A stretch of DNA of 52,993 nt, from assembly GCA_001794635.1 (NCBI GenBank), contig MGKE01000008.1:1-52993 (forward strand), given 5' to 3'. This document shows, piece by piece, positions 26,872 through 43,968 of the stretch. Position numbers and translations under genes: made by a program. How positions within the stretch are numbered: position 1 is the stretch's first letter; every line of letters begins with the position of its first letter. Below the pieces are notes generated by a model. It did not search any database. It was not told the origin of the DNA and saw nothing but the letters and a program-made list of their open reading frames with translations. This DNA comes from Candidatus Yanofskybacteria bacterium RIFCSPLOWO2_01_FULL_39_28 (lineage in GTDB: Bacteria; Patescibacteriota; Minisyncoccia; 2-02-FULL-40-12; GWA2-44-9).

Positions 26872-28257
26872 CTACCCTGATTTGAGAAGGTCAATAACGG
26901 TTTGTTTGTCTGACCACGGTATCTTTTTATTCCTGGCTGCAGCCATAGACGTTTCCGAACCCTTGCCGGTAATTATCACCGTATCGCCTTTTTGAGCCAT
27001 AGAAATTGCTTTTTGAATTGCTTCTTTTCTATCTAAAATTTTACTTGTTACTTGTTGCTTGTTACTTGTTGCTGATGAAAAACCAGAAGCAATTTGATCT
27101 AAGATTTCTTCTGGTTTTTCATCATACGGGTCTTCGTTGGTCAAAATTATCTCATCACAATATTGAGCCGCCATCCGCCCAAACTCCGGTCTTTTCCACT
27201 TATCTCTTCCTCCTCCAGCTGCTCCCAAAACGCAAACGAGCTTATTTGCGTTTTGGGAGCCCTGAGCTTGTCGAAGGGCCAGTTCATTTTTCAACGTCTT
27301 ATATACTGCTTCCAAAGAATCCGGTGTATGGGCGTAGTCCACAACTACATTAAACGGCTCTCGTTGCAAGAACTCCATGCGACCGGGAATAAGTTTGATA
27401 GATTCAAGCGCTGGTTTCATGCTTGGCAAATCTATTTTATACATCGCTCCCACCGCCAACGCCGCCAGACAGTTCATCACATTAAATTCGCCCGCCAGAT
27501 TAATATCAAAGTAAGTGCCATATAATTCAAAGGAAGTTCCTTTTTGTGTTAATTTGACTTTATCAGCAACTAGGTCGCCCTTTTTCAGGCCAAAAAATAT
27601 TTTATGCTTAGCTGGAAAGTTACCGAACAAATCCGTGTGCTGATCGTCAGCATTAATTACATGAATATTTTTGGTCTTATTAAATAATTCCTGTTTGGCT
27701 TGATAGTAATTTTCAAAAGAACCGTGGCTTTCAAGATGTTCTTTGTGTAAGTTAGTAAAAACAGCGCAATCAAAACTAATTCCCAAATGTCTTTTTTGCT
27801 TAATACCTTCTGAAGTCACCTCCAAAACAAAATATTCACAACCAGCTTTTACTGCTTCGGCTAATAATTTTTGAAGCCGAAAACGGCCAGGCATGGTCAT
27901 TTTCAAAGTGTTCGGCCATTCTTTGTCTTTTATTTTGTATCCAAGAGAGCCACAAGCAGCGACTCCCCCCACTTGGACGTTCAACTTCACCCCACTTGGA
28001 CGTTCAACTTCCAAGTCAGCCTCTAAAATTTTTGTGATCAGATAAACAACCGTTGATTTACCCTTGGTTCCAGTTACACCGATAACTTTTAATTTCTTTG
28101 AAGGAAATCCATAAACCAAAGCTCCCGTGTAAGCGAGGATTGCGTGATAAGCAGGCTGAAAAAAATTAAAAACTGATTTTGGTATCAGCTTCTTGACACT
28201 AAATAATACTTTGTCTAATATGTTCTCTTTGAGCATAGAATAGTCAAAATATATCAT
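26872..28257 (-). CDS. murE: Mur ligase family protein (MurE-like)
   Basis: GVTGTKGKSTVVYLI, HKEHLESHGSFENYYQAKQELF, VVDYAHTPDSLE, GAAGGGRDKWKRP. Confidence 0.88.
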   Translation of the reverse strand: MIYFDYSMLKENILDKVLFSVKKLIPKSVFNFFQPAYHAILAYTGALVYGFPSKKLKVIGVTGTKGKSTVVYLITKILEADLEVERPSGVKLNVQVGGVAACGSLGYKIKDKEWPNTLKMTMPGRFRLQKLLAEAVKAGCEYFVLEVTSEGIKQKRHLGISFDCAVFTNLHKEHLESHGSFENYYQAKQELFNKTKNIHVINADDQHTDLFGNFPAKHKIFFGLKKGDLVADKVKLTQKGTSFELYGTYFDINLAGEFNVMNCLAALAVGAMYKIDLPSMKPALESIKLIPGRMEFLQREPFNVVVDYAHTPDSLEAVYKTLKNELALRQAQGSQNANKLVCVLGAAGGGRDKWKRPEFGRMAAQYCDEIILTNEDPYDEKPEEILDQIASGFSSATSNKQQVTSKILDRKEAIQKAISMAQKGDTVIITGKGSETSMAAARNKKIPWSDKQTVIDLLKSG

Positions 28258-28299
28258 AAATTAACCAAAAAGTAAGCCTTTTTCGGGCACGACTAACTG

Positions 28300-28328
28300 T
28301 TGACAAAGTAATATCAGTATGTTATACT
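28300..28328 (+). promoter_or_regulatory. consensus sigma70 promoter TTGACA-N17-TATACT
   Basis: -35 28300-28305, -10 28323-28328; drives the structured region, no annotated CDS. Confidence 0.8.
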
Positions 28329-28335
28329 TAAAAAA

Positions 28336-28868
28336 TACTTGTTCTTACTGGGCCTTATGGGGGTTCAGAAAAGGCTTCAAGAAACCAAGCTTAGCTTGAT
28401 AGAAGCCTTTTCCGAGTCCCGTAAACCCGAATAAAAAACTTCGGAGAGACTTGGGGCTTTAAGAAAGGAGGGGTAAAATTATGTCTTTCGCCGGGAAATC
28501 GGCGAGAAGAGCGAGTGGTTCCGTACACAAGCCGGAAACACAACCACCCCCTCTTCAGTGTAAAAAACCATTCTGGAAAGACGGGTCTGTGCGGACCTGA
28601 CATCACCGCACGGGAGAGCTTCGGCTCTCCCTCCTTCATCTTTGATCTTAATCTGAAATATATTAAGATTATAGATGAGGGGAGCAGGTACGGGAAGATG
28701 CGAGGCGAACTACCCGAACGCATCACCTGCCACCCTCAATCTCCCGTCCTTAGCAAATAGAAGCTGGACGGGCTAGAGACCAACCACTTTCGCCTAGAGC
28801 TAATAAGTGGGAGGGTACTGAATGCGGACATTCGGTGGTACGCCGGGCTAGCAGCCCGGCTTTTGTTT
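28336..28868 (+). ncRNA. candidate large structured non-coding RNA, unknown class
   Basis: Consensus promoter, about ten perfect or near-perfect helices (e.g. 28368-28378/28402-28412; 28612-28619/28624-28631 with UUCG loop; 28743-28749/28766-28772), terminator GCCGGGC-TAGCA-GCCCGGC-TTTT. Confidence 0.8.
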
Positions 28869-28869
28869 T

Positions 28870-29799
28870 CTAAAAAATCTTTCTGGCTAGTGAGTAGACT
28901 AAGTACCAAAACCTTGAGACGACTAAATCAAATGAGCCGGGATATTCTTTTAAATCCCCTCCCCAACCAAGCTTGAAACGAGTTACACCTGGCCACTTTT
29001 TTGCATCAATTCCCCACAAGTCATAATTAGTAAGCTGGTAAGCTGGTAAGCTGGTAAGCTTAAGAAATTTAATAATGTTCCAGTGCATAAAATATGGCGC
29101 CATTAAGTTCTTATATTCCCTATCCATCGCTCCATGAAGATAATAAGCGAAGTTATGATATATCATAACCATTGCTCCTCCGATATATTTATCTTGAAGT
29201 TTCACTAGAAATAATTTAGTGATTAATTCTTGTCCTTCACGGAAAAAATTAAGCATTTTTTCGTAATACTCTTTTGAGTTGGTTGAGAATTGATCTTTTT
29301 TAGCCGTTTGTTTTAATAACTTCCAAAAGGTGTCAATGTCATTGCTTTCCTCAAGCACCAGACCCTTTTTTTCAGATAAGTTGATATTATATCTGGTTTT
29401 ATGATGCATTCGTGATAATAACTCTTCTTCTGATAAGTTAAGATTAATAATTACTGTCTTGGAGGGCTGAATTTGTTTTCGCGATCGTCTAAATCCTTTT
29501 CTATATAAAAGTTCCATAACTATGTCAGATAGCGGCTCAACTTTAACAAAAATTGCTTTTTCTTCTTTCGCTAAATATTTTAAATATTTAATAAAATTAG
29601 CTAACTCATTTTTGATTCCGCCTCTTATATCATCTAGCTTTACTTCTGGCCCGTGAGGTATATACAAATAACTTTTTCCAAACGGAAGATCATGCTTTAT
29701 TATATTGGCCCTGATCTTACTATCGTTAAATCTCCAGACTTTATGTCCAACACTTTCCTGAAACTTCGCCCACTCTTCCGTTTGTAGAAATGATTTCAT
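28870..29799 (-). CDS. FemAB/FemX-like peptidoglycan bridge aminoacyltransferase (GNAT fold)
   Basis: MHHKTRYNINLSEKKGL, GGAMVMIYHNFAYYLHGA, YDLWGID. Confidence 0.85.
   Translation of the reverse strand: MKSFLQTEEWAKFQESVGHKVWRFNDSKIRANIIKHDLPFGKSYLYIPHGPEVKLDDIRGGIKNELANFIKYLKYLAKEEKAIFVKVEPLSDIVMELLYRKGFRRSRKQIQPSKTVIINLNLSEEELLSRMHHKTRYNINLSEKKGLVLEESNDIDTFWKLLKQTAKKDQFSTNSKEYYEKMLNFFREGQELITKLFLVKLQDKYIGGAMVMIYHNFAYYLHGAMDREYKNLMAPYFMHWNIIKFLKLTSLPAYQLTNYDLWGIDAKKWPGVTRFKLGWGGDLKEYPGSFDLVVSRFWYLVYSLARKIF
29030..29061. repeat. 8-bp tandem repeat (GTAAGCTG)x4 inside the FemAB-like CDS
   Basis: GTAAGCTG GTAAGCTG GTAAGCTG GTAAGCTT. Confidence 0.95.
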
Positions 29800-43895: not shown

Positions 43896-43968
43896 TCCGC
43901 CCAGTAGGAGTCGAACCTACGACCCTCTCGTTAAAAGCGAGCTGCTCTACCAACTGAGCTATGGGCGG
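43896..43968 (-). tRNA. tRNA-Lys (anticodon UUU)
   Basis: Cloverleaf: acceptor CCGCCCA/TGGGCGG, D arm GCTC/GAGC, anticodon loop CTTTTAA, T arm GTAGGTTCGACTCCTAC; CCA not encoded. Confidence 0.95.

Follow-up and report, generated by a model that had tools for sequence, protein, structure and literature searches.

The stretch of DNA studied here (the window) comprises 52,993 nucleotides (nt) of contig MGKE01000008.1 from Candidatus Yanofskybacteria bacterium RIFCSPLOWO2_01_FULL_39_28, and this report concerns a candidate RNA gene at positions 28335-28869 on its plus strand. The gene lies between a divergent MurE-like Mur ligase gene (26872-28257, minus strand; Pfam Mur_ligase_M and Mur_ligase_C) and a convergent FemAB-family gene (28870-29799, minus strand; Pfam FemAB). 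An earlier reading of the same letters, referred to below as the original prediction, had proposed an undescribed large RNA, possibly specific for the Candidate Phyla Radiation (CPR), on the strand opposite to both neighbours, and this is the arrangement that we observe.

The RNA gene is framed by two transcription signals, both of which had been predicted and were found in place. The first is a sigma-70-type promoter (TTGACA-N17-TATACT, 28300-28328, plus strand) with an extended -10 element (TGTTATACT), which agrees with the consensus at 11 of 12 positions, carries TG ahead of the -10 box, and is the single plus-strand match to TTGAC(A/T)-17-TATA(A/C)T in the 53-kb window. The second is an intrinsic terminator (28842-28868, plus strand) that consists of the hairpin GCCGGGC-TAGCA-GCCCGGC at 28842-28860 followed by TTTTGTTTT. 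From this pair of signals we infer that the gene is transcribed as a discrete RNA of ~535 nt, with the start set by the promoter and the end by the terminator. The predicted RNA has a folding energy of -212 to -213 kcal/mol, which corresponds to a z-score of -7.4 to -8.3, while 19 control stretches of equal length from the window had a mean of -1.3 and a lowest value of -4.0. We read the stretch 28300-28870 on both strands. Long hairpins are expected to give stable folds on either strand, and the reverse strand indeed reaches z = -6.7. The plus strand is nevertheless the one that carries the RNA, to judge from the promoter, the terminator and the covariance model score (83.8 bits versus 35.1 bits for the reverse). 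The segment at 28335-28869 is thus very probably a free-standing gene for a large structured RNA.

Homologues were sought in four genomes of ~0.7-1 Mb that represent all available genomes of the genus, namely the window's own genome (G000) and three relatives (G001, G002 and G003), all of them Candidatus Yanofskybacteria. BLASTN recovered fragments in G001 and G003, and a covariance model of the 5' hairpin D1 (R1, 67 positions, built from three sequences without G002) recovered the fourth homologue in G002 at 70 bits. The homologues are diverged in sequence and keep the position beside femAB: in all four genomes the gene is next to femAB on the opposite strand, with a Trp_repressor-like gene intervening in G003, and in three of the four it lies between femAB and murE, the other-side neighbour in G002 being a different gene. 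The homologous promoter, TTGAC(A/T)-17-TATA(A/C)T with TG before the -10 box, is located 31-38 nt upstream of D1 in every copy, and each copy has its own terminator. Measured from close to the -10 box up to the terminator, the copies are about 535 nt (window), 719 nt (G001), 549 nt (G002) and 931 nt (G003) long, and the copies of the relatives have fold z-scores of -7.1, -10.0 and -15.0.

The predicted RNA is organized as a chain of domains (all on the plus strand). The 5' hairpin D1 (28360-28420), which scores 70-90 bits with R1 in the four genomes, is composed of the helices 28360-28366/28414-28420 and 28368-28378/28402-28412 and the apical helix 28386-28390/28394-28398, together with a conserved asymmetric internal loop. 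Pairing is possible in 96% of its alignment cells, and 8 of its 24 pairs changed on both sides, a number equalled in none of 500 shuffles; this covariation was lost once the strands were slid by one column. The compensatory changes imply ongoing selection on structure. The middle domain varies between lineages. Between D1 and D3 the window copy has a GC-rich hairpin at 28489-28504, immediately behind an AUG and with a GC-rich counterpart in G001 and G003, a middle-domain hairpin at 28506-28556 (GAAGAG/CUCUUC, GUGGUU/AACCAC, CCG/CGG), the hairpin GUGCGG/CCGCAC at 28589-28611, and a UUCG-capped hairpin GGGAGAGC/GCUCUCCC at 28612-28631. The UUCG-capped hairpin is near-identical in G003, where BLASTN gives 79% identity to G000 across this stretch, and is enlarged in G001.

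Downstream of the middle domain, hairpin D3 (28633-28681; CCUUCAUC.../...GAUGAGG) is present in all four copies, with a much larger apical loop in G003. It has 94% of cells paired and 3 of 18 pairs doubly changed, a signal that is weak versus shuffles and clear versus slid controls; its covariation support is moderate. The closing helix of D4 (28684-28730; GCAGGU/ACCUGC and GAUGCG/CGCAUC) and the three-way junction D5 (28732-28816; ACCCUC/GAGGGU, CCCGUCC/GGACGGG, CCACUU/AAGUGG) are likewise recognisable in every copy. The interior of D4 differs between species, and CCCGUCC/GGACGGG of D5 is replaced by CCCGUU/AACGGG in G001. A small, perfectly paired hairpin GAAUG/CAUUC (28820-28833) precedes the terminator. 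Eleven of the twelve helices listed in the original prediction pair exactly as given; the remaining one (28644-28652/28661-28669) was slightly shifted, the conserved helix being 28633-28650/28664-28681. A CGGG/CCCG pseudoknot, also suggested there, is possible in the window copy and was not seen in the homologues.

In G001-G003, D5 is followed by an invariant hairpin AGCGGGAGAACCCCGCU and then by a strongly conserved 3' domain (TCCTCRTGGAGC..ACCA..AAAAA..TGCGGA..ATCCGA..GTGCAC..TCGGAT..TCCGTACC), the covariation of which is supportive. Its model R2 is based on alignment A2; MAFFT misplaced G002 in several alignments of this domain. R2 detected the 3' domain in G001-G003 only; at the sensitivity used, none was found in the window copy or elsewhere in its genome. 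The window copy is therefore a short form that has the terminator in the place of hairpin AGCGGGAGAACCCCGCU. For the 3' domain we also considered an H-type pseudoknot (CAUGG-AGCU...CCAUG-A-rich-AGCU, with AGCAUG/CAUGCU in G001), which is suggestive, is weak in G002, and was not retained. Most of the middle domain is missing from G002, and the 3' domain from the window copy, which indicates that domains are gained and lost while D1, D3 and D5 persist.

Between D1 and the first middle-domain hairpin, the window copy contains AGAAAGGAGGGGUA (28462-28475, plus strand), a strong Shine-Dalgarno (SD)-like complement of the 16S ribosomal RNA (rRNA) 3' end with a pairing energy of -17.5 kcal/mol. In the window's genome, locus L084 shows a 16S rRNA terminating in GGATCACCTCCTTTCT, which confirms the anti-SD tail. 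Across the four RNAs the best complement of this tail ranges from -16.8 to -18.0 kcal/mol. Among 40 shuffles per RNA (160 in total), which averaged near -12.8, the observed value was reached in 0, 0, 0 and 1 cases, and that of the window exceeds all 40. The SD-like site of each RNA is also stronger than the gene starts of the window: of 42 long open reading frames (ORFs), each represented by the strongest among at most six candidate starts, the best reached -13.3 and the median was near -6. In G000, G001 and G003 the site occupies the corresponding place; an AUG or GUG stands behind it at the usual distance, and a GC-rich hairpin comes next. The 20-base SD-AUG pattern had no match in the genome-contig collection. 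A possible boxA antitermination signal close to the 5' end, which G002 and G003 have as an exact GUUCUUU and the window as the near-match GUUCUUA, was also considered and is not claimed here, the signal being absent from its expected place in the rrn leaders of the family. As a separate observation, the 16S rRNA gene itself seems interrupted or overlong in two genomes (G000:C11:83096-84827 and G001:C17:69124-70886); rRNA insertions are common in CPR bacteria (PMC11270868).

Each of the four RNAs has a strong SD ahead of an AUG or GUG, as would be expected of a dual-function or small-protein transcript in which the SD and AUG at 28462-28483 open a small ORF and the structure serves the message. 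In the window this ORF has 39 codons (28481-28600, plus strand), and the original statement that the region holds no credible coding sequence had overlooked this very strong start. However, the ORFs that follow the strong SD in the four genomes have 39, 15, 2 and 6 codons and do not resemble each other, the one of 39 codons matches no Pfam family and crosses well-formed hairpins, and the most conserved domains of the RNA lie outside it. Furthermore, cross-translation of every frame of each copy against the others revealed no favoured reading frame: short matches occurred in many frames of both strands, exclusively within nucleotide-conserved blocks, and hence reflect conservation of nucleotides. 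No frame is conserved, and on the basis of cross-translation we reject a protein as the main product of the locus. The 39-codon ORF is probably not the product of the RNA, and we regard a small-protein transcript as unlikely.

The distribution of the RNA was assessed at several taxonomic levels. R1 had no credible match in the remaining 24 family genomes; a 19.7-bit D1 match in G022 is weak and falls in unrelated intergenic sequence. A survey of 384 genomes of the class with R1 and R2 gave no credible match outside the genus (G002 is outside that list, yet was positive in the family survey), and its sole match (G134, 28 bits) proved to be an ordinary terminator hairpin. No homologue was found in phage, plasmid or viral-contig collections either. 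Pattern matches in viral contigs (L042-L047 and L087) were attributed to chance, with L087 seeming to represent a replicase gene of an RNA phage. With the genomes sampled so far, the RNA therefore looks genus-restricted, a narrower range than the CPR-specific one that had been envisaged.

In the rest of the family the gene order ruvA-femAB-murE is conserved, and the femAB-murE junction is abutting (≤25 nt) in 12 loci and carries inserts in nine. Eight of these inserts contain protein-length ORFs and one (L058) is a non-coding inverted repeat; none is a recognisable diverged copy of the RNA. A junction that is either empty or filled with other inserts suggests that the genus ancestor acquired the RNA at this permissive site, or that the RNA became recognisable there at that stage. 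The unrelated inserts present at the junction in nine or more other genomes of the family also raise the idea that the RNA belongs to, or is the remnant of, a mobile or repeat element (intron-like, or resembling miniature inverted-repeat transposable elements) that settled at a permissive site. Against this, the RNA is present in a single copy in the window's genome, with one D1 site per genus genome and the same location in all four, it has its own promoter and terminator, no Rfam intron family matches it, and D1 carries compensatory changes. We consider such an origin very improbable. A local role was considered too: in most family members femAB directly adjoins murE, presumably within one operon, and three of the four genomes have the RNA between the two genes on the other strand, divergent from murE, so that a convergent RNA might interfere with transcripts from femAB or simply separate the two genes. 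Cis interference, however, would not require a conserved and covarying fold of several hundred bases, the other-side gene in G002 is not murE, and protein genes occupy the junction in other genera, all of which leaves a local regulator a slim chance.

Several further repeats were noted around this junction. Loci L056-L067 show that it is a recurrent insertion site in a conserved gene order, with Trp_repressor-like genes located close to palindromes (for example TATGATATATCAAAGAATCATAA) and with insert ORFs that, by eye, resemble NUDIX, HIT, GIY-YIG and GNAT proteins and vary by genus. The ~200-nt insert of L058 (~1301-1501) is non-coding; it has long inverted repeats that are almost perfect, with hairpins inside, and is distinct from the RNA. 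In G001 (L013, 2300-2765), ~460 nt separate the RNA terminator from femAB and include the inverted repeat TTAAAAATAAATCAATTC ... GAATTGATTTATTTTTAA. Within the window, the murE-like gene contains a perfect 23-bp tandem duplication (27967-28011, two copies) and a palindrome-type repeat TGAGCTTGTCGAAGG (27263-27277) that is translated through as ..LRQAQGS.., to which a ruvA stretch of G001 reading LVEGP is possibly related. The femAB-like gene has 3.9 copies of the 8-bp unit GTAAGCTG near its 3' end (29030-29060).

We compared the RNA with known families using Rfam 15, at the gathering threshold and then at lax thresholds over 27900-29100. There was no match above threshold in the RNA stretch, and everything that the lax search returned (microRNA models and further unrelated families) was at chance level; the sole RNA call at the gathering threshold in the window was a tRNA at 43896-43968. 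None of the four loci matched any family, as predicted. A very divergent housekeeping RNA (RNase P RNA, transfer-messenger RNA (tmRNA), signal recognition particle RNA or 6S RNA) might be invoked because RNaseP_bact_a was undetected in G000, G002 and G003 despite the presence of rnpA in G000, a non-detection that could be due to assembly gaps or divergence. RNase P is nevertheless excluded, since G001 has a separate 107-bit RNaseP_bact_a besides this RNA, and the RNA has no RF00010 match. The tmRNA (RF00023) of the window's genome is encoded at another locus (G000:C14:80456-80806). These findings agree with the reported lack of RNase P and tmRNA signatures and, with no Rfam signal even at lax thresholds, make a housekeeping identity hardly credible. 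Group I and group II introns were likewise rejected, as there is no Rfam match and the RNA is free-standing between promoter and terminator. The RNA is thus previously undescribed, being absent from Rfam and unreported in the papers that were searched. It combines the features of large structured bacterial noncoding RNAs, namely promoter, terminator, extensive structure, covariation and no conserved ORF. The prediction of an undescribed RNA stands in these respects and needs qualifying in that the RNA is genus-restricted and the window carries its short form.

Taken together, we consider it likely that 28335-28869 encodes a new class of large, structured, stand-alone noncoding RNA in the sampled genus, most probably a trans-acting one. 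The RNA would be transcribed from its own extended -10 promoter, end at its own terminator, and fold into a chain of D1, a lineage-variable middle domain, D3, D4 and D5, with an additional 3' domain in the relatives. It would then work in trans as a folded RNA or ribonucleoprotein; trans action is likely because there is no same-strand gene downstream to regulate. In the mechanism that we favour, itself less likely than not, the extended SD-like segment may dock the RNA on the 16S rRNA 3' end of the 30S subunit, with the remaining domains acting as a scaffold or binding protein. From sequence we infer expression, trans action and 30S contact alike, and docking is the tentative part. By analogy in outline with OLE and GOLLD, we offer as speculation that an over-long SD, serving no protein start, docks an RNA that is a ribosome regulator or hibernation device. 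Several observations weigh against the overall interpretation. The SD-like site is homologous only in G000, G001 and G003; in G002 the complement is at a different position, where it also forms the 3' strand of the helix that closes D5, and the site is not preferentially unpaired in the predicted folds (0.28-0.49). Covariation is strong in D1 alone, owing to the sample of four sequences, and a genus-restricted RNA of variable length could be regulatory or dispensable. On the other hand, this ultra-small Parcubacterium is genome-reduced and presumably host-dependent, a cell that has shed most genes, and the retention of a 0.5-0.9 kb RNA in four of four genomes of such a gene-poor genus suggests that it does real work. 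The four loci provide a ready covariance-model seed for uncultured Patescibacteria.

Large structured bacterial RNAs of unassigned role are few (OLE, ROOL, GOLLD and similar). RNAIII of Staphylococcus aureus is a ~0.5-kb RNA with an independent promoter and terminator, a chain of hairpins and a small SD-led ORF. The window RNA shares these features, whereas we found no sequence relation and its small ORF is not conserved. ROOL is large and ornate, assembles into an RNA cage and has no known protein partner; GOLLD is often longer than 800 nt and is pulled down with ribosomes (both PMC12286853). Our RNA is large and ornate like ROOL, and large and modular like GOLLD, with one conserved and one variable region. 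In contrast to both, it gave no match to their Rfam covariance models in the four loci and lacks a phage or prophage context, being flanked by ruvA-femAB and murE in a chromosomal cell wall gene pair without matches in phage collections. The OLE RNA (ornate large extremophilic) is ~600 nt long and has an SD/anti-SD (ASD) mimic bound by ribosomal protein bS21 (PMC12054373). It differs in its mostly Bacillota distribution, as opposed to Parcubacteria here, and its Rfam model does not match the four loci; no OapA, OapB, OapC or bS21 gene directly adjoins the RNA gene. OLE pairs both the SD and ASD sides internally. All four of our RNAs have the SD-like segment, whereas an ASD-like partner, CCUCCUU just before D3, occurs in the window copy only, so that internal pairing is possible there and was not seen in the relatives. 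Size, elaborate helices and a segment that mimics one of the two partners in SD/anti-SD pairing are features that the two RNAs share. Should the 16S complement prove functional, the RNA described here would be the third ribosome-linked large RNA after OLE and GOLLD, a link that is testable.
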